Source: Gammaproteobacteria bacterium
Lineage (GTDB): Bacteria; Pseudomonadota; Gammaproteobacteria; SG8-11
Length of the DNA stretch: 32,982 bases
Direction: 5' to 3'
Assembly (NCBI GenBank): GCA_024641505.1
Contig: JAHECY010000042.1
Location: 1 to 32,982 of the forward strand
In this document: in pieces, positions 5,810 to 29,591 of the stretch
How the letters are laid out: the number at the start of each line of letters is the position of its first letter
Numbering within the stretch: position 1 is the first letter of the stretch
Program-made: the position numbers and the translations under genes
Notes under the pieces: generated by a model
The model's database searches: none
What the model saw: the letters and a program-made list of their open reading frames with translations, nothing else
Told to the model about the DNA's origin: nothing

Positions 5810-6925
5810 ATGGATCGCGCCAAGGCTTACCGTTTCCTTCCCTGCTTACTTTGCCGTTGGCTGGTGGTGAGCGTGTTGCTGACGGCGGTTGCTTGCGCCG
5901 GTGGTGGTAGCAGCGGCGATGAGGGTGGTGCAAGCGGCGGTACCGGCGAGCGCGGCGCCGGTGATGGCGCAGACGATAACGGCGGTGGCGGCGCCTCCGG
6001 CGGCACCGGCACCGGCACCGGTACCGGAGCTGGCACCGACGCTAACGGCACCACGGGCCCGGCTGGTCCCGGGACCAACGAGGACGGCTATCGCAATACG
6101 GGTAGCGACAAATGGCAAGTCATGAATTCCGGCACCTTCAACACCTTGGCCAATGTCTGGGGCACCGCGGCAAACAGTCTCTATGCCGTGGGTATCCAAG
6201 GTACGCTCGTGCATTACGACGGCCAGACCTGGACACCGACCACGCTGGACACCGAGCTGCCGTTCACCGATGTGTGGGGCAGCTCGGACCGGGATGTCTA
6301 CGCCGTGGGTTTGGGAAAGAGCTATCACTACGACGGTGTCTCCTGGAGTGCTTTTACGCATCCCAGTGAGCAGGGGCTGAGCAGTGTTTGGCTGAGTGGG
6401 CCCCGGGACATCTACGTTTTGGACGCGGCGGACCGGATCTATCACAGCATCGATGGCAAACGCTGGGACCTCGTGTATGACGACTCCGACTCCGTAGTGT
6501 TGGATCTCTACCAGGTGCGGGGTAGCGCCGCGGATGATATTTATGTGGCGGGCGCACCCAGTTTGCATTTTGATGGCGCGCGCTGGTCGCTGGTGGATAT
6601 CGGTACCGCCACCAATAGTTCCCAAAGCGTCTGGGTGAACAATGCCAGCGACGTATACTACCTGGTTTACGACGATGTTTACCATTTCGACGGTAACGGC
6701 TGGTCCGCGTCTCATACCGCCGCCAATACCTACATGAAGCGCATCTGGGCGGCGTCCATGAGCGCCATCGTCGTCGTCGGCGACGGCGTGTTTCGTTACG
6801 ACGGCGCGTCCTGGACGTCTGATATCGATCGTACTACCGGCAATATTTATGGTGTCTGGGGTGCCTCGGCCACGCAAGTATTCGGCGTCGGTCAGGCCGG
6901 CCGCGCCATCATTTTTGTGCCGTAA
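5810..6925 (+). CDS. putative lipoprotein with seven-repeat beta-propeller-like domain
   Basis: Function unknown. From the ATG at 5810 the product has 371 residues: a hydrophobic signal region ending in LLTAVAC with Cys29 as a plausible lipidation site, a flexible Gly/Thr/Ala/Asp linker to about residue 100 (including GTGTGTGTGAGT), then seven repeats of about 35-45 residues. Each repeat has the pattern VWG-x(5)-D/S-VYAVG...YHYDG-x-x-W. Repeats of the type 'WG...DVYAVG...HYDG..W' are common in large families of secreted myxobacterial and other proteobacterial proteins. Seven units fit a seven-bladed propeller exposed outside the inner membrane, perhaps binding a partner or polymer (inference). 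The TTG at 5762 is rejected as the start; GGAG lies about 12 bases before the ATG. The stop is followed by a palindromic terminator. Confidence 0.8.
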   Translation: MDRAKAYRFLPCLLCRWLVVSVLLTAVACAGGGSSGDEGGASGGTGERGAGDGADDNGGGGASGGTGTGTGTGAGTDANGTTGPAGPGTNEDGYRNTGSDKWQVMNSGTFNTLANVWGTAANSLYAVGIQGTLVHYDGQTWTPTTLDTELPFTDVWGSSDRDVYAVGLGKSYHYDGVSWSAFTHPSEQGLSSVWLSGPRDIYVLDAADRIYHSIDGKRWDLVYDDSDSVVLDLYQVRGSAADDIYVAGAPSLHFDGARWSLVDIGTATNSSQSVWVNNASDVYYLVYDDVYHFDGNGWSASHTAANTYMKRIWAASMSAIVVVGDGVFRYDGASWTSDIDRTTGNIYGVWGASATQVFGVGQAGRAIIFVP

Positions 6926-6949
6926 GGCGCGTATTACGCACCGGTTTTT
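6926..6949 (+). terminator. palindromic hairpin plus T-run after the lipoprotein gene
   Basis: The stem GGCGCGTA/TACGCACC (one internal mismatch) is followed by GG and five T. It starts immediately after the TAA of the lipoprotein gene. It is a copy of the palindrome also found at 6987-7001 and 29308-29322. Confidence 0.6.
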
Positions 6950-6986
6950 ACGATGTCTGCGCGGCTTCGTTATAGAAAATTGCGTG

Positions 6987-7001
6987 GTGCGTATTACGCA
7001 C
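6987..7001 (-). repeat. intergenic palindrome GTGCGTATTACGCAC
   Basis: A perfect inverted repeat with 7-base arms around one T. It lies one base beyond the TAG of the transporter gene on the minus strand, so it can form a hairpin at the end of that transcript. No strong T-run follows on the minus strand (only ATTTT about 15 bases further). Together with the copy at 6927-6941 it gives two convergent palindromes in a 77-base gap. Confidence 0.7.
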
Positions 7002-7002
7002 T

Positions 7003-8436
7003 CTACAGCACCCTGGGTAACACCGTGAGGATGAAAAGCGTGATCAGCGCGGTACCCAGCAGGTTCAATCCGAAGCCCGCCTTCGCCATTTGCGGTATGG
7101 AGATCTGGCGGCTGCTGTAAACGATGGCGTTGGGGGGCGTGGCCACCGGTAGCATGAAGGCATAGGACGCGGCGACGGCGACCGCGGTCATGGTGATCAG
7201 GGGATTGATATCCATGGCCACCGCCAGCGCGCCCATGACCGGGATCATCAGCGAGGCCGTGGCGGTGTTGGATGTCACCTCGGTGAGAAACACCACGAGC
7301 AGCACGATGGTGGCGATTAACACAACCGCGTCCGTGCCCTGCAATACCACCAGCGCATTGGCCAGCCATTGGGTGAGGCCGCTGGCGCTGAAACCCTCAG
7401 CCAGAGCGAAACCGCCGCCAAACAGGATAATGATGTCCCAGGGAATGGTCACGGCGGTCTGCCAGTCGAGCAGAAACTTTCCCTGCTTGAAGTCGACCGG
7501 AATGATAAACAGCGCCACCGCGCCGGCCATGGCAATGGTCGAATCCGTTACCAGCTTCAGGCTGTCCAGCGTGATAAAGCCGCGCGTGATCCAGGCGCCG
7601 GCGACCAGAATGAAAATCGCCAGCACCATTTTTTCTTCCCGCTTCATGGCACCCAATTGCGACAACGCATCCCGGATAGCGCCGTGACCACCAAATTGTT
7701 CCAGGGCGGCGGTGGGGAACAGTATGCGAGTCAGGTACCACCAGGTGCATAGCAGCATGATGACCGATAAGGGCAGGGCGAACAGCATCCAGTCCGCGAA
7801 ACTGATGCTGATCCCGTAAGTTTTTTCCGCGATGCCCGCCAGGATGGCGTTGGGGGGGGTACCGATGAGGGTCGCGACGCCGCCGATGGACGCGGCATAA
7901 GCGATGCCCAGCATCAATGCCGTGCCGAACGGCGTGGCGCCTGCGGGGGCGGCAGCGCCGGCCGGCTGAATTTGCTTAATCACCGCCAAGCCGATGGTTA
8001 ACATCATCATGGCGGTGGCGGTATTGCTTACCCACATGGACAAAAAAGCGGTGGCGAGCATAAACCCCAGAATGATGCGCCGGGGCGTGGTGCCGATGAT
8101 AAGGATGGTGTGCAGGGCGATGCGTTTGTGCAGTTGCCATTTTTCAATGGTAACCGCGATCAGAAAACCGCCCATGAACAGATAGATCAGGTGATTGGCG
8201 TAGGCGCTGGTGACTTGCTGGGAGCTCATGACGCCCAGCAATGGGTACAGGGCAATGGGCAGCAACGCGGTGGCCGGAATCGGAATGGCTTCGGTAATCC
8301 ACCATACCGCCATCAGCACCGCGATCGCCGCTACCGCCATGGCCGCGGGCGACAGCATGGCGGGGGTGGGCAGGAGCAGCAGTAGCATAAACAGCGCCGG
8401 TCCCAGCAACAGACCGATCCAGCGACGCCGCTCCAT
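7003..8436 (-). CDS. DASS (SLC13) family sodium/anion or dicarboxylate symporter
   Basis: A 477-residue inner-membrane carrier with about a dozen hydrophobic segments. The DASS signature appears twice, as expected for the two-fold family fold: SMWVSNTATAMMM around residue 133 and TEVTSNTATASLMIP in the C-terminal half; the SNT motifs form the sodium and substrate sites. The N-terminal WWITEAIPIPATALLP segment and APPNAI/TPPNAI loops also fit. Substrates in this family include succinate, malate, citrate and sulfate; the sequence alone does not decide, but a position 46 bases downstream of citrate synthase on the same strand favours a TCA-cycle dicarboxylate (inference). GGCAGGTG precedes the ATG. 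Confidence 0.9.
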   Translation of the reverse strand: MERRRWIGLLLGPALFMLLLLLPTPAMLSPAAMAVAAIAVLMAVWWITEAIPIPATALLPIALYPLLGVMSSQQVTSAYANHLIYLFMGGFLIAVTIEKWQLHKRIALHTILIIGTTPRRIILGFMLATAFLSMWVSNTATAMMMLTIGLAVIKQIQPAGAAAPAGATPFGTALMLGIAYAASIGGVATLIGTPPNAILAGIAEKTYGISISFADWMLFALPLSVIMLLCTWWYLTRILFPTAALEQFGGHGAIRDALSQLGAMKREEKMVLAIFILVAGAWITRGFITLDSLKLVTDSTIAMAGAVALFIIPVDFKQGKFLLDWQTAVTIPWDIIILFGGGFALAEGFSASGLTQWLANALVVLQGTDAVVLIATIVLLVVFLTEVTSNTATASLMIPVMGALAVAMDINPLITMTAVAVAASYAFMLPVATPPNAIVYSSRQISIPQMAKAGFGLNLLGTALITLFILTVLPRVL

Positions 8437-10694: not shown

Positions 10695-11351
10695 TTACTT
10701 TTTATTCTCAGCAGGTTTCATTTTTCTCTGTATGTCATTGATCAGCTTTCCGAGCTCCCCCGGTTCCATTTGCTTATTGAAGATATCTTCTATTGCGATA
10801 AGCTGTTGGTTTCGTTGATCCGGCAGGTAGGTGTTGATCACGCCGATATAACCGGCAAACGAAAAACCTTTCGCTACTTTAAATGCATAACCGCCATAAG
10901 GTGGCGACTGGTTTCTGTGCAAGATTGCCGCTGAAAAATCGTTAACGTTTTCTGGCTTGATTTCGTAAAGTCTTACGTTATTACTTTTTGAATCGAAGGT
11001 TCGTATGCTGACTGACTCGCCAAAGTTTACATACAGAACGCTTGACCGATGCCCCATATACCAAAATGCCTGATAGTCTATCAAGATTGCTACTTTCACC
11101 ATCGCCATATCGATATCGGAAAACAGCTCGTCAGGCAGAAACATATCTCTTGAATTGCCTGTATGGTAATAGGCATCATTAAAATATTTCAGCATGGTGT
11201 CGTAATCCGGCACATTATTGGCTTTGAACACGGTGGCATAGCTCAAATCCCATGCAAACGGATTGTCGGCGGCTTGCGCACAGGTTGCCGCAACTAGCAG
11301 GAATTGGCCGAAAAATGTCGATAACAAGAAATTAATGATAAATTGGCGCAT
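10695..11351 (-). CDS. exported protein of unknown function
   Basis: I do not recognise this family. From ATG at 11351 the product has 218 residues with a clear signal peptide (hydrophobic LLSTFFGQFLLVAATCAQA, cleavage before ADNPF), so it is probably periplasmic. The mature part is mixed alpha/beta in appearance with several aromatic stretches (YQAFWYMGHRSSVLYVNFG, PPYGGYAFKVAKGFSFAGY) and a basic C-terminus (RKMKPAENKK). The gene is visibly richer in A and T than hemB and aroE beside it, which may mean a different origin. It starts 14 bases after the aroE stop, so it is likely expressed from the hemB-aroE transcript. The open frame continues upstream to 11690, but that part overlaps aroE and is discarded. 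Confidence 0.75.
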   Translation of the reverse strand: MRQFIINFLLSTFFGQFLLVAATCAQAADNPFAWDLSYATVFKANNVPDYDTMLKYFNDAYYHTGNSRDMFLPDELFSDIDMAMVKVAILIDYQAFWYMGHRSSVLYVNFGESVSIRTFDSKSNNVRLYEIKPENVNDFSAAILHRNQSPPYGGYAFKVAKGFSFAGYIGVINTYLPDQRNQQLIAIEDIFNKQMEPGELGKLINDIQRKMKPAENKK

Positions 11352-11365
11352 GGGAACCGTAATCC

Positions 11366-12232
11366 CTATGCCTGAGATGCGGAGGCGGCCATCCGGCGAC
11401 GTACCTCCGCGATTACCGGTGCGGTTTGCGGTTTGATCTTGCGCCAGATGAAAAATGCTTCCGCCGCTTGTTCCACCAGCATGCCCAAGCCATCGGCGAC
11501 GATGGTTGCGCCCTGTTGACGACACCAGACCATGAACACGGTGGGCGCGGCGCCGTACATCATGTCGTAGCACAGGGTTGCCGGGGTCACCAGGTGGCGG
11601 GGCAGGGGCGGCAGTGCACCTTGCAGACTGGCGGCGGTGCCGTTGATCAGGATATCGCAGGGGGCGTCGATCAATTCGTCGAAGCCGCAACCCTGGATCG
11701 GACCCAGGTGCGCGCAGGCGTGGGCCAGTTCCTGGGCGCGGCTGGCGGTGCGGTTGGCAATGATGACCGATGCCGGGGCCAGTGCCAGTAGCGGTCCCAG
11801 CACACCGCGCACGGCGCCGCCCGCACCCAATATCACAATGTGCTTAGCCGCCAGCGGTGTGGCCAGGTTGCTGGTGATGTCCTGTACCAAACCGGTGCCA
11901 TCGGTATTGTCACCGATGGCGCTGCCGTCCGGGGCAAAGCTGATGGTGTTCACCGCGCCGGCGAGTTGCGCCCGGGGAGTGCGCGTTGCCACCCATTCCC
12001 ATGCTTCCTGCTTGAATGGCACGGTGATGTTGAGACCTTTACCGCCGTTCGCCTGGAAATTTCCCACCGCCTGGGCAAAACCTCCCGGGTCGACCTGGAT
12101 TGCAGTGTATTCCAGGCGTTGCCCCGTTTGTCGGGCAAACAAGCTGTGAATGAGCGGCGATTTACTGTGGTGGATGGGGTTGCCCATCACCGCGTAAAAA
12201 TCCTTTTGTTTGTCGAAATCCAGTAATGACAT
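11366..12232 (-). CDS. aroE: shikimate dehydrogenase (NADP)
   Basis: Reduces 3-dehydroshikimate to shikimate in the chorismate pathway. The product has 288 residues. Seen: the shikimate site AVMGNPIHHSKSPLIH, the catalytic Lys in NITVPFK, the NTDGTG motif with its Asp, the dinucleotide loop GAGGAVRG and the NADP-preferring NRTASRA motif, and the C-terminal GLGMLVEQAAEAFFIW. The start MSLLDFDKQKDFYAVMG is chosen by alignment; the frame extends to 12295 but would overlap hemB. hemB ends 22 bases upstream and an unknown exported protein gene starts 14 bases downstream, so a hemB-aroE-orf unit is likely. Confidence 0.95.
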   Translation of the reverse strand: MSLLDFDKQKDFYAVMGNPIHHSKSPLIHSLFARQTGQRLEYTAIQVDPGGFAQAVGNFQANGGKGLNITVPFKQEAWEWVATRTPRAQLAGAVNTISFAPDGSAIGDNTDGTGLVQDITSNLATPLAAKHIVILGAGGAVRGVLGPLLALAPASVIIANRTASRAQELAHACAHLGPIQGCGFDELIDAPCDILINGTAASLQGALPPLPRHLVTPATLCYDMMYGAAPTVFMVWCRQQGATIVADGLGMLVEQAAEAFFIWRKIKPQTAPVIAEVRRRMAASASQA

Positions 12233-12254: not shown

Positions 12255-13310
<1,056 letters not shown>

Positions 13311-13339
13311 TTATACAAGGAAAACGAGCGGAGAGGACA

Positions 13340-13374
13340 CCCGTTCCCGGCGCGTCATCCGTGCCGGGAACGGG
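13340..13374 (-). terminator. strong hairpin between adk and hemB
   Basis: CCCGTTCCCGGC (13340-13351) and GCCGGGAACGGG (13363-13374) form a perfect 12-base stem with an 11-base loop, just downstream of the adk stop on the minus strand. There is no T-run, so it may be a transcript-stabilising hairpin or an attenuating structure ahead of hemB. Confidence 0.55.
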
Positions 13375-13388
13375 GTCGGGGCAGCGGT

Positions 13389-14600
13389 TTAACGCTTTTT
13401 CTTGGCGGCGGTTTTCTTGCCGGTCTTTTTCTTGGCAGCGGGTTTTTTGGCCGTCGTTTTCTTGGGTGCTGCTTTTTTAACCGCCTTTTTCTTGCTGGCG
13501 ACCTTTTTCTTGGGAGCCGCCTTCTTGGCGGTGGTCTTCTTCTTAGGCGCTACTTTCTTCTTGGCGGCCACTTTCTTGCCAGTAGCTTTCTTTACGGCCG
13601 CTTTTTTCGCAGTGCCTTTCTTGGCCGCGGCTTTCTTTGCCGTCGCCTTTTTGGCGGTGGTTTTCTTCGCAGCGGATTTCTTGGCCGTCGCTTTCTTCGC
13701 TGTTGTCGCTTTTGGTTTGGCTTTGGCCTTGGCCGTGGTTGCCTTCGCGGTCGTCTTGCCTGCGGCCTTCTTGGTGGTGCTTACCGCCTTGGCCGTGGTC
13801 GCTGCTACCGCAGTCTCCGCGGGAGCCGCTGCTGGTTTTGCCGGTGCGGGTTTTTTGGCCGGGGTTTTGGCAGTGGATACCGGTGTCGATGCGGGTTTAC
13901 GTTCTGGAAGATCGACCTTGGGCGCGCTGAACATAGTGTCGATATTTTGTTCAGGTGCTTCGTCGATGGTTTTGCACAGGGCGGCGTAGATATCATTGAT
14001 TTCGCCGGTGCCCGGTACCGTACGCAATTTGTTCTGGTTCTTGTAATAGGCAATCAAGGGCGTGGTTTGGGCTTCGTAGAGTTTCAGCCGGTTACCGATG
14101 GTTTCCTCGTTGTCATCCGCCCGGTGGTGCAGGACGCCGCCGCATTTATCGCACCGGTCCTCCAGTTTGGACGGCGAACTATAGATATTGAACACCGCGC
14201 TGCAGGATTCGCAGGTACGCCGACCGGTAATGCGCTGTATTAGAATATCGAAATCTACTGTTATATGGACTGCCAGCTGCAGGGGGATGCCCATTTGGTC
14301 CAGCAAACCATCAAGCGACTCCGCCTGGATCAGGTTGCGTGGGAAACCGTCGAGAATAAATCCGTCCCGGGTATCCTGCTGCGCCAGACGTTCCTTGATC
14401 ATTTCCAGCACGATCTGGTCGGAGACGAATTGACCGGAATCGATAATCGATTTGGCTTGGATGCCCAGAGGTGTCTGGTTTCTGACGGCGGCACGTAGAA
14501 GATCACCTGTGGAAATTTGTGGTACATGATATTTTTCAGTAAGTAATTTGGCTTGTGTACCTTTGCCGGAACCCGGCGCGCCTAATAGTACGATTCTCAT
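13389..14600 (-). CDS. adk: adenylate kinase with a long histone H1-like C-terminal tail
   Basis: Residues 1 to about 220 are a complete adenylate kinase (ATP + AMP to 2 ADP): P-loop GAPGSGKGT (7-15), STGDLLR, DGFPRN (84-89) and a long LID with four zinc-ligand cysteines (130, 133, 150, 153) followed by HHRADDNEETIGNRL. Most E. coli-type enzymes lack these cysteines. From about residue 235 to 403 the frame continues without a break into a Lys/Ala/Thr/Pro tail of repeated TAKKA, AAKK and APKKK units, like histone H1 tails and bacterial H1-like proteins. The ATG at 14600 has GGGAG upstream. An internal ATG (residue 223, position 13934) has no ribosome site, so a separate histone-like protein is less likely. 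The tail could bind DNA, RNA or polyphosphate; its role is unknown. Confidence 0.93.
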   Translation of the reverse strand: MRIVLLGAPGSGKGTQAKLLTEKYHVPQISTGDLLRAAVRNQTPLGIQAKSIIDSGQFVSDQIVLEMIKERLAQQDTRDGFILDGFPRNLIQAESLDGLLDQMGIPLQLAVHITVDFDILIQRITGRRTCESCSAVFNIYSSPSKLEDRCDKCGGVLHHRADDNEETIGNRLKLYEAQTTPLIAYYKNQNKLRTVPGTGEINDIYAALCKTIDEAPEQNIDTMFSAPKVDLPERKPASTPVSTAKTPAKKPAPAKPAAAPAETAVAATTAKAVSTTKKAAGKTTAKATTAKAKAKPKATTAKKATAKKSAAKKTTAKKATAKKAAAKKGTAKKAAVKKATGKKVAAKKKVAPKKKTTAKKAAPKKKVASKKKAVKKAAPKKTTAKKPAAKKKTGKKTAAKKKR

Positions 14601-14726
14601 TTTTCTCTGCCACTCCCTACGGTTGAATTTGTTTTCTGGGCAGCAACACTGCAACCCCCTACGTGCCTGCCCCAAGAAGAACCGCAATAAATCATCGGGA
14701 CTTCGATTGCGAAGCCGGCACTACCC

Positions 14727-14742
14727 GGTGCGTGCCTGCACC
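14727..14742 (-). repeat. degenerate copy of the GGTGC..GCACC palindrome family
   Basis: GGTGC-gtgcct-GCACC, flanked by CTACCC on the left and CTAC on the right; read on the minus strand it begins GTAGGGTGC like the copy after ubiB. Only part of the motif is conserved, so membership is tentative. Confidence 0.35.
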
Positions 14743-14901
14743 CTACGCTGACATGACAGCAAAACTACTCCCAAACCCGCACAAACGTCAATATATACAC
14801 GCACGCTAACTATACATTCTCTGGTGTTCGTGTACAGTAGTTTGGCCCAAACAAATAGAAATGATGAACCTGGGTAATGAAAGATTTTATCGCCCAGGCT
14901 A

Positions 14902-14929
14902 TTGGTTTCATCAAACAGGCCAATATAAT
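14902..14929 (+). promoter_or_regulatory. sigma-70-like promoter of the PPi-phosphofructokinase gene
   Basis: TTGGTT (14902-14907), a 16-base spacer and a consensus TATAAT (14924-14929). Transcription would start near 14936, giving a leader of about 40 bases before the ATG at 14975. Confidence 0.55.
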
Positions 14930-14974
14930 GGGGCCTCCAAAAATGTAGAAATTAAAGAGCAGGGGAGAAGTGAT

Positions 14975-16240
14975 ATGGCGGCAAAAAATGCGTTTTATGC
15001 CCAGTCCGGGGGTGTTACAGCGGTGATCAATGCGTCCGCGTGCGGTGTTATCGAAACCGCTCGCAAATACAAAACTAAGATCGCCAAGGTTTACGCGGGG
15101 CGCAACGGTATCATTGGTGCGTTAACTGAAGATCTGATCGATACCAGCAAGGATTCCGCCTCGGCCATCGCCGCGTTACGCCATACGCCTGCCGGAGCGT
15201 TTGGCTCGTGTCGATATAAGTTGAAGGGCCTGGAGCAGAACCGGGCGGAATATGAGCGCCTGATCGAAGTCTTCGAAGCCCACAATATCGGCTATTTTTT
15301 CTACAATGGCGGCGGTGATTCCGCGGATACCTGCCATAAAGTTTCTCAATTGTCGCAGCAGATGGGCTATCCCATTCAAGCTATTCATGTTCCCAAGACC
15401 GTGGACAACGATCTGCCAATCACGGATAACTGCCCGGGCTTTGGCTCCGTCGCCAAATACATCGCGGTATCCACCCGCGAAGCCAGTTTTGATGTGGCCT
15501 CCATGGCGAAAACATCCACCAAGGTATTCGTTCTGGAAGTCATGGGGCGTCATGCGGGCTGGATTGCCGCCGCGGGCGGCATGGCATCCGATAAGGAAAC
15601 CGATATTCCAATTGTGATCCTGTTCCCTGAAATAGCTTTCGATCGGGATAAGTTCCTGGCAAAGGTCGATGGCATGGTGAAAAAATACGGTTATTGCTCC
15701 GTCGTGGTCTCCGAAGGCGTCAAGGGCGCGGACGGCAAGTTTCTCTCGGACCAGGGATTGCGGGATGCGTTTGGTCATGCCCAATTGGGAGGTGCTGCAC
15801 CGGTGGTCGCCAATATCGTCAAAGACGGTTTGGGCCTGAAGTATCACTGGGGTGTTGCAGATTACCTACAACGGGCGGCACGTCATATTGCATCCAAGAC
15901 CGATGTGGCGCAGGCTTACGCCATGGGCAAGGCGGCGGTGCAATTTGCCGCCAAGGGGCACAACGCGGTGATGCCTACCATCAAGCGCGTCTCCAATAAG
16001 CCCTACAAATGGACCGTGGACATGGCGCCGTTGGACAAAGTGGCCAATGTGGAAAAAATGATGCCTGAAAACTTCATTACCAAGGACGGCTTCGGGATCA
16101 CCGACAAATGCCGCCAGTACCTGGCACCCCTGATCAAGGGCGAAGATTATCCTCCTTATAAAGACGGTTTGCCTAAATACGTTCGCTTGAAGAACGTGGC
16201 GGTGCCCAAGAAACTGAAGAATAAGTTCGAAGTGAAATAA
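14975..16240 (+). CDS. pyrophosphate-dependent 6-phosphofructokinase
   Basis: Transfers phosphate between PPi and fructose 6-phosphate, reversibly, in the cytoplasm. The 421-residue product has the phosphate-donor loop NGGGDSADT (111-119), where Asp occupies the position that is Gly in ATP-dependent enzymes, and PKTVDND (140-146), where Lys replaces the Gly of the ATP type. Both exchanges mark PPi dependence. MGRHAGW (190-196) binds fructose 6-phosphate. The ATG at 14975 follows GGGGAGAAG and a promoter, so the in-frame start at 14861 is rejected. The gene converges with hppA and is near ppa; in methanotrophs PPi-PFK and membrane pyrophosphatase genes are known to be linked. A strong terminator follows. 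Confidence 0.94.
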   Translation: MAAKNAFYAQSGGVTAVINASACGVIETARKYKTKIAKVYAGRNGIIGALTEDLIDTSKDSASAIAALRHTPAGAFGSCRYKLKGLEQNRAEYERLIEVFEAHNIGYFFYNGGGDSADTCHKVSQLSQQMGYPIQAIHVPKTVDNDLPITDNCPGFGSVAKYIAVSTREASFDVASMAKTSTKVFVLEVMGRHAGWIAAAGGMASDKETDIPIVILFPEIAFDRDKFLAKVDGMVKKYGYCSVVVSEGVKGADGKFLSDQGLRDAFGHAQLGGAAPVVANIVKDGLGLKYHWGVADYLQRAARHIASKTDVAQAYAMGKAAVQFAAKGHNAVMPTIKRVSNKPYKWTVDMAPLDKVANVEKMMPENFITKDGFGITDKCRQYLAPLIKGEDYPPYKDGLPKYVRLKNVAVPKKLKNKFEVK

Positions 16241-16319: not shown

Positions 16320-18326
16320 TTAGAGCGACAGCAGTGGCGCGATCACCAGGCTGACGATGGCCATGACATTGATCAAGATGTTCATGGCGGGACCGGAGGT
16401 GTCCTTGAAGGGGTCACCCACCGTGTCACCGACCACCGCGGCTTTATGAACATCGGACCCTTTGCCACCCAAATTGCCTTTTTCGACGTATTTCTTGGCA
16501 TTGTCCCAGGCGCCACCGGCATTGGCCATGGTCAGGGCCAGCAGCACGCACCCCAGCAGGGCGCCGCCCAGCATTCCCCCCAGCGCCTCGGCGCCGAGTC
16601 CAAAACCCACCACTGGCGGCGCGGCCACCGCCAGTACGCCGGGCAGAATCATTTTCCGAAGCGCGGCGCGGGTGGCGATATCCACGCACCGGGCGTTGTC
16701 CGGTTGTGCCTTGCCTTCCAGCAGGCCGGGTATTTCCCGGAACTGGCGCCGGATCTCCTGGATCATATCGAACGCGGCTTCACCCACCGCGGTCATGGTG
16801 AGCGCGCCCACCAGAAAGGGGAAAATTCCGCCGATGAACAATCCTACCAGCACATTCGCGCTGTTGAGCGTTAACGTGAAGCCGGGATTGTGGTGCGCCA
16901 CGGTCTCGACATAGGCGGTAATGATGGCCAGGGCCGCCAAGGCGGCCGCGCCGATGGCGAAGCCTTTACCGATAGCCGCGGTGGTGTTGCCGAGCTCGTC
17001 CAGGGAATCGGTGATCTTGCGGGTCTCGGCGCCAAGTTCCGCCATTTCCGCAATTCCGCCGGCGTTATCCGCCACCGGCCCGTAGGCATCGATCGCCATG
17101 GTGATACCCACCGTCGCCAGCATGCCCACCGCGGCGATGCCCACCCCGTACAGCCCCACCAGGTGATTTGCGATGAAGATGATGGCGCAAATGGTCAGCA
17201 TCGGGACCACTACCGATTGCATGCCGACCGCCAGGCCGGCGATCATCACGGTGGCCGGGCCGGTTTCGCCGGCATGGGCGATATTGCGTACCGGTTTGCC
17301 CGCGGTGTAATACTCGGTCACCAGTCCGATGATGATGCCGCCGACGGCGCCCACCAGCACCGCGCCCCACACCTTGCCGTTGACGTCGGTGCCGGTAATG
17401 ACGAAGTAAGCGGCGATAATGAACAACAACGCGGCACCGATGGTGCCGATGCGCAAGGCGACATCGGGAGATTTTGCGGAAAACACGTTGACCATGGCGA
17501 TCCCCAGAATCGAACACACCAGGCCTGCCGATGCCAGCATCAGGGGTAATGACATCAGGTGCGCCTGGGAACCCAGATTGCCCAGCACCGACATGGACAG
17601 GGTGGAAGCAATGGCAATGGTGGCGATAATGGCACCGCAATAGGATTCAAAAATATCCGACCCCATGCCGGCCACGTCGCCCACGTTGTCGCCCACATTG
17701 TCGGCGATCACGCCGGGATTCCGGGGGTCATCTTCCGGGATGCCCGCTTCGATCTTGCCCACGAGATCAGCGCCCACGTCAGCGCTCTTGGTGAAAATGC
17801 CACCCCCCACACGGGAGAACAATGCCACCGAGGAGGCGCCCATGCCGAAACCGTGAATGGCGTGTGCCGTATCCGGATCACCGCCGAAGGCTATGTAAAG
17901 AACGCCGAGACCCAGTAAACCCACGGAGGCCACGGTCAGCCCCATGATGGAGCCACCAAAAAACGCGGTGGTCAGAGCGGCGGCGGCACCGTGAGTATGG
18001 GCCGCGGTGGTGGTGCGGGCATTGGCCTGGGTGGCGGTATACATACCAATATACCCGGCGATACCGGAACAGAAGGCGCCCACGGCAAATGCCAGTGCCG
18101 TTTTCCAGCCCAGGAAGACCCATAACAAGGCGGCGACAATCAGTGCGAACGGTCCCAGAATGGAATATTCCCGGCGCATGAATACCATGGCGCCCAAGTG
18201 GATGGCATCGGCTATTTCAGTTACCCGGCCGGCCAGCACCGGCGTCGCTTTGACGCGGTTGTAAATAAAAAATGCCACGATCAGGCCAAACACCCCCAGG
18301 CCGGGTGGCAGATAAGTAATATCCAT
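16320..18326 (-). CDS. hppA: membrane-bound ion-pumping pyrophosphatase
   Basis: Hydrolyses PPi and pumps H+ or Na+ across the membrane, or runs in reverse to make PPi. The 668-residue protein has many transmembrane segments and the family motifs [11 protein letters not shown] (183-193) and DNVGDNVGD (209-217), plus the C-terminal [14 protein letters not shown]. At GNTTAA the second Ala (near residue 451) replaces the Lys of K+-independent enzymes, so K+ dependence is expected. The gating Glu is Glu227 in SDIFESY, one helical turn before the plant H+-PPase position, as in Na+-pumping forms; ion choice is therefore open. AGGAGGAG precedes the ATG. It converges with PPi-PFK and is divergent from ppa. 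Confidence 0.96.
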
Positions 18327-29501: not shown

Positions 29502-29591
29502 GGAGAGGTGCCAGAGTGGCCGAATGGGCTTGACTCGAAATCAAGTGTGGGGGTAACCCCACCGAGGGTTCGACTCCCTCCCTCTCCGCCA
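29502..29591 (+). tRNA. tRNA-Ser (anticodon CGA)
   Basis: A 90-base gene folding as a class II tRNA: acceptor GGAGAGG/CCTCTCC with G discriminator and encoded CCA, anticodon stem CTTGA/TCAAG with loop CTCGAAA (anticodon CGA at 29536-29538), a long variable arm (GTGGGGGTAACCCCAC) and T-arm GAGGG-TTCGACT-CCCTC. It reads UCG codons. Confidence 0.97.

Follow-up and report, generated by a model that had tools for sequence, protein, structure and literature searches.

Adenylate kinase (Adk) is an essential, soluble, energy-balancing enzyme. The zinc-LID Adks, e.g. 1ZIN and the Bacillus subtilis enzyme (1P3J), have their fold, motifs and four-cysteine (Cys4) LID in common with the protein described here, but stop at ~217 residues, whereas the present protein adds a 169-residue tail. 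The alphaproteobacterial proteins of NF010381 (PRK13808), which NCBI names merely 'adenylate kinase', are likewise Adks with a Lys-rich C-terminal tail; however, their tails are shorter (~70-96 residues), their cores lie in another clade and lack the Cys4 lid, and their origin is separate. The present protein scores 187 bits against NF010381, under the 426-bit cut-off, and is not a member. No Lys-tailed bacterial Adk was found described in open-licence PMC papers.

Histone H1-like tails are better known from other bacterial proteins. AlgP/AlgR3 and PhaF of Pseudomonas carry a DNA-binding, granule-organizing H1-like Lys/Ala/Pro tail similar in size to that of the Adk, but their N-terminal part is helical or phasin-like, where the present protein has an enzyme. 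KPAA peptides of AlgP bind DNA in vitro, its 154-residue KPAA tail is required for the spacing of polyphosphate (polyP) granules, with which the protein associates, and in cells lacking polyP kinases it seems to contact the nucleoid as a whole (PMC9239181). Actinobacterial topoisomerase I (TopA) is also an enzyme with an H1-like Lys-repeat C terminus, and its lysine repeats stabilize it on DNA (PMC7398561); the substrate of TopA is DNA, whereas Adk has no known DNA substrate. The H1-like proteins of Chlamydia (HC2) and Burkholderia, the profiles of which match the Adk tail weakly and below curated cut-offs, are stand-alone nucleoproteins, unlike the fused tail. With AlgP, PhaF and TopA already known, the Adk fusion is a new variant among H1-like-tailed proteins.

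Results

Gene and protein architecture

The locus (Table 1) lies in a gammaproteobacterial stretch of 32,982 nucleotides, here called the window. The original prediction, of a zinc-LID Adk running without interruption into a Lys/Ala/Thr tail of about 170 residues, was confirmed in the form of one ORF, the main ATG of which is preceded by GTAGGGAG. A frameshift or stop between core and tail is excluded, because relatives carry the same architecture with open frames and differing tail lengths; frameshift, misassembly and read-through are likewise ruled out as origins of the fusion by the many independent assemblies, including closed genomes, that share it.

Table 1. Features of the adk-tail locus and its neighbors in the window
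Feature	Position	Strand	Evidence or remark
adk-tail ORF	13389..14600	-	403 aa + stop; ATG at 14600, stop 13389-13391, zero internal stops over 403 codons
Adenylate kinase core, residues 1-214	13959..14600	-	Profiles, active-site residues, pLDDT ~92, PDB fold match 1zin
Zinc LID, residues 127-162, Cys 130/133/150/153	14115..14222	-	Pfam ADK_lid
Linker, residues 215-234	13899..13958	-	pLDDT <50 from residue 221 on
H1-like tail, residues 235-403	13392..13898	-	Composition, pLDDT ~48, 15-nt/5-aa periodicity
Internal ATG (Met223), judged non-start	13932..13934	-	No Shine-Dalgarno-like sequence; Met confined to close relatives L005-L008
Strong, terminator-like hairpin just past the stop	13336..13377	-	Fold z-score -3.9 for 13250-13400
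Intergenic region of the divergent adk-tail/pfp pair	14601..14860	.	Larger if pfp starts at 14975
Phosphofructokinase-family gene (pfp), divergent	14861..16240	+	PF00365; likelier start ATG 14975
Membrane H+-pyrophosphatase (hppA)	16320..18326	-	PF03030
hemB, downstream of adk-tail	12255..13274	-	PF00490

The core matches Pfam ADK over residues 5-190 (E 6.5e-55) and ADK_lid over 127-162, exceeds both NCBIfam adk equivalog cut-offs (NF001380, 283.7 versus 251 bits; TIGR01351, 245.6 versus 168 bits), and is ~43-47% identical to solved Zn-Adks, with 1zin the nearest fold. None of the 18 active-site positions checked, among them P-loop K13, R36, D84, R88, R123, R160, R171, D162 and D163, departs from the canonical residue, so that, as judged from its residues, the tailed Adk of this genome looks catalytically intact; LID cysteines C130, C133, C150 and C153 place it in the zinc-LID subgroup. 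The AlphaFold model, built on a shallow alignment of 19 rows, combines a confident core with a tail devoid of secondary structure. The same genome has a second, tail-less adk broken over contig ends (L229, G000:C162 18034-18556; L230, G000:C2 1-338), and a similar break occurs in a relative, G001 (L233, L234).

The tail (residues 235-403) is composed of Lys (0.355), Ala (0.308), Thr (0.154) and Pro (0.071) in a loose five-residue period, with one Glu, one Arg and a net charge of ~+60. It thus belongs to the H1-like class, i.e. long, predicted disordered, Lys/Ala/Pro(Thr)-rich C termini in which acidic and aromatic residues are nearly absent, although profiles for stand-alone H1-like proteins match it below their cut-offs (PF07382 (HC2), 27.3 versus 40 bits; NF038053 (hist_H1_lk_Burk), 30.1 versus 80 bits), the weak Chlamydia HC2 match covering residues 313-401. 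Other H1-like arms were met in passing. L231 (G000:C172, 235-aa frame) and L232 (G001:C6) are a small protein with a helical-looking N terminus and an H1-like Lys tail, which is conserved in the sister genome and is possibly phasin-like or AlgP-like. L235 (G024:C543), by eye a DksA-like protein, has a Lys-rich N-terminal extension of ~250 residues and is thus a further case of an H1-like arm on a housekeeping protein.

In the window tail Lys is encoded by AAG 32 and AAA 29 times, and Ala and Thr each use all four codons; since the Lys, Ala and Thr codons are mixed, the tail is not fresh repeat slippage. Across the tailed Adks K/(K+R) is 0.90 in tails versus 0.39 in cores, and 0.86 versus 0.34 in those loci whose GC content exceeds 60%. 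For L247/L248, the close pair with the least saturation, the tail dN/dS (w) is 0.11 (dS 0.31, dN 0.03), several dS values among the pairwise estimates being saturated. Recent replication slippage is ruled out by the mixed synonymous codons, the Lys/Arg bias against GC and the low w, and by these sequence measures the tail is under purifying selection. Of 98 complete tails, 59% terminate in Arg, which accounts for 3% of residues inside the tail; the separately evolved alphaproteobacterial tails also end in Arg (RAKR).

Distribution of tailed adenylate kinases

Prevalence was estimated with a 213-residue core query across 370 Gammaproteobacteria genomes, and not from the search whose seeds included tail peptides. 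Among the matches listed, cores at least ~58% identical lie mostly in open frames of 300-560 aa, and divergent tailed Adks are undercounted. With 113 loci fetched with their flanks and 210 distinct Adks measured, and with a tail defined as at least 60 aa with K+R of at least 20%, 110 of the 210 distinct adk loci are tailed (median tail 182 aa, range 69-317). The original prediction had called for the breadth of the fusion to be mapped, and it proves to be conserved across 39 family codes in 90 sampled gammaproteobacterial genomes, with carriers including Chromatiaceae, Sedimenticola and a Lamellibrachia endosymbiont. The accompanying view that no established Adk has such a tail does not hold, given this wide distribution and the basic-tailed Adks already in NF010381. 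The tailed protein is the sole Adk in ~35 well-completed genomes, a count that depends on completeness, as do all per-genome adk counts, many of the records being metagenome assemblies.

On the core tree the tail requires seven changes, five of them forced by well-supported branches, and 93 of the 101 rows of one large clade (support 86, not starred) are tailed. Tail loss is also seen within the tailed clade, and some lineages can thus do without the tail. The alphaproteobacterial NF010381 members over the cut-off, with ~70-96 basic C-terminal residues, have a separate origin on the tree, and a Bacteroidia MAG holds another tailed Adk (L064). A divergent Adk-like protein, L236 (G014:C29; 548-aa open frame, Walker A GSGKRTQA), has a long Lys/Arg tail, and its genome also carries a tail-less adk.

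Tailed copies with altered active sites

Cores were called degenerate when at least two of the 18 aligned active-site positions were changed. Of the 52 tailed genomes that contain a further adk, 8 have a degenerate tailed copy, as against none of the 35 well-completed genomes whose sole adk is the tailed one (p 0.019); for at least one change the figures are 11/52 and 0/35 (p 0.0025). After six families were sampled more densely and added, the pooled counts are 26/79 with a second adk versus 0/36 with the tailed copy alone (p 2e-5), these being, like all the degeneracy comparisons, Fisher tests that ignore phylogeny and shared ancestry. There are 27 distinct degenerate tailed Adks, and a second, tail-less adk is present in 26 of the 26 checkable genomes, the 27th copy (L049) having no genome-wide adk count.

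The changes range from R88E (L186, L193), K13R with R36N (L210) and D33A with R160G (L199) to 7-11 of the 18 positions in L325-L327, at 34% identity. From their residues we infer that catalysis is lost in the degenerate copies, though D33E and T31S may be mild. Loss is uneven across the active site: per-site loss is 0.67 at D84, 0.43 in the AMP site and 0.30 in the P-loop, but 0.08 for the LID/ATP residues. Similarly, identity to the intact consensus is 0.49 in the AMP-binding region, against 0.71 for tail-less homologues, whereas in the LID it is 0.63 against 0.46. The Cys4 set, which is also found in tailed gammaproteobacterial Adks, is retained in 27 of 27 degenerate copies, their median tail is 191 aa, and their cores evolve with w of 0.13-0.14 (L255/L256, L254/L258; dS ~1.5). 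The possibility that these are dying pseudogenes is rejected on the open frames, the retained cysteines, the long tails and the low w.

The degenerate state needs four changes on the tree, three forced by starred branches, although deeper placements may be wrong given the long branches of these copies; in families f42 and f117, intact and degenerate copies occur inside one genus on well-supported branches. Among tail-less Adks 1 of 146 is degenerate, namely L214, which adjoins pfp and was apparently once tailed.

Gene neighborhood

The hairpin past the stop is probably a terminator, and no Rfam family matched at the adk-tail locus. The PF00365 neighbor is probably PPi-dependent. A divergent pfp adjoins adk in 87 of the 210 distinct loci, tailed and tail-less, including 11 loci where the linkage occurs without a tail, and it adjoins nearly all degenerate copies whose flank reaches far enough; no pfp neighbor was found for the NF010381 Adks. 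In the raw table (74/32/11/86) tail and pfp look associated, but the sign test over five independent pairs is flat, and joint evolution of the tail with pfp linkage is rejected on that test. It may be that pfp adjacency is older than the tail. Elsewhere in the window, a tRNA gene (29502-29588, plus strand) is the sole Rfam match, and two minus-strand ORFs, 5846-7369 (507 aa) and 10695-11690 (331 aa), have no Pfam match and may be spurious.

Discussion

The reading that we favor, with a probability of about one half, is that the disordered polycationic tail tethers a zinc-LID Adk, active or degenerate, to polyanions, likeliest chiefly the nucleoid. By analogy with AlgP, PhaF and TopA it can be inferred that the tail binds polyanions. 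DNA, RNA, polyP and anionic lipid are indistinguishable as partners by sequence; our guess is that the nucleoid is the main one, with polyP second and RNA third. The tail would act as an electrostatic tether, chiefly to the nucleoid and possibly to polyP or RNA. In genomes whose sole Adk is tailed, the tether would hold an active enzyme; in those that also have a tail-less Adk, the tailed one would repeatedly have been demoted to a pseudo-Adk that drops the AMP site and D84 while most LID/ATP residues, the zinc ligands and the tail stay.

The originally proposed tethering to nucleoid, ribosomes or polyP is thus plausible, but a tie of energy charge to DNA is not the whole story, the tail outliving catalysis in many lineages. 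Because the tail is retained after active-site residues are lost, the tailed protein probably has a selected role beyond phosphotransfer. The tethered fold may do more than interconvert 2 ADP and ATP + AMP, e.g. by responding to nucleotides as a protein of the nucleoid or of granules; since tailed pseudo-Adks are retained, the value of the tethered object would lie in its fold, which perhaps reads ATP, as well as in its enzyme activity. A tentative extension, which we think may well be wrong, is that ancient polyanion-tethered Adks of Gammaproteobacteria repeatedly gave rise, once a second Adk was acquired, to non-catalytic, histone-tailed pseudo-Adks that keep only the ATP side and serve as nucleotide-reading nucleoid or granule proteins.

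Specific binding to polyP granules, placing the Adk at the conversion of polyP-derived AMP, ADP and ATP, is a rather unlikely alternative to nucleoid tethering. It draws on the location of AlgP, an H1-like protein, on granules the spacing of which needs its tail, on neighbors (pfp, H+-PPase) that suggest PPi metabolism, and on a review according to which PPK1 overproduction in Escherichia coli enhanced adenylate kinase activity and expressed polyP:AMP phosphotransferase activity (PMC3163519); however, substrate channeling cannot explain degenerate tailed copies, and pfp linkage occurs without the tail too. Binding to RNA or ribosomes, so that adenylates are balanced near translation, is unlikely: Lys-rich tails can bind any nucleic acid and composition is non-discriminating, but nothing is specific for RNA, binding to which would by itself leave the loss of the AMP site unexplained. 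The divergent pfp beside nearly all degenerate copies, and the retention of LID/ATP residues with loss of the AMP site, would also fit a nucleotide-responsive pfp regulator that binds DNA at the shared promoter and reads ATP. We consider this improbable, in that the protein has no sequence-specific DNA-binding domain and its tail is expected to be non-specific, while tail-less pfp linkage exists and the independent-pairs test gives no tail-pfp coupling.

The variable tail length (69-317 aa) and five-residue periodicity are what a neutral low-complexity tail, grown by replication slippage and merely tolerated, might display, but such an origin is hardly credible in view of the preference for Lys over Arg despite GC pressure, the mixed synonymous codons, the tail w of 0.11, and retention of the tail both deep in one large clade and in degenerate copies. 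Finally, the in-frame ATG at 13934 could be an internal start for a separate basic protein, making the fusion incidental. It had been predicted that no ribosome site precedes this ATG, and indeed no Shine-Dalgarno-like stretch was found before it; Met223 is conserved only within the window's own family, and the internal start was rejected as highly improbable.

Polyanion tethering of the Adk fold, the reading preferred here, would bear on how a textbook soluble enzyme is regarded, in that in many Gammaproteobacteria the only Adk bears a histone-like tail of about the length of its catalytic core. The genomes with a second Adk provide a natural experiment, in which the tailed protein can lose its active site but keeps its tail; because tailed copies can lose active-site residues in this way, the tethering role would be separable from catalysis. 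The tailed Adks thus offer a concrete test of whether the bacterial chromosome or polyP granules may be sites at which the adenylate energy state is read or buffered.
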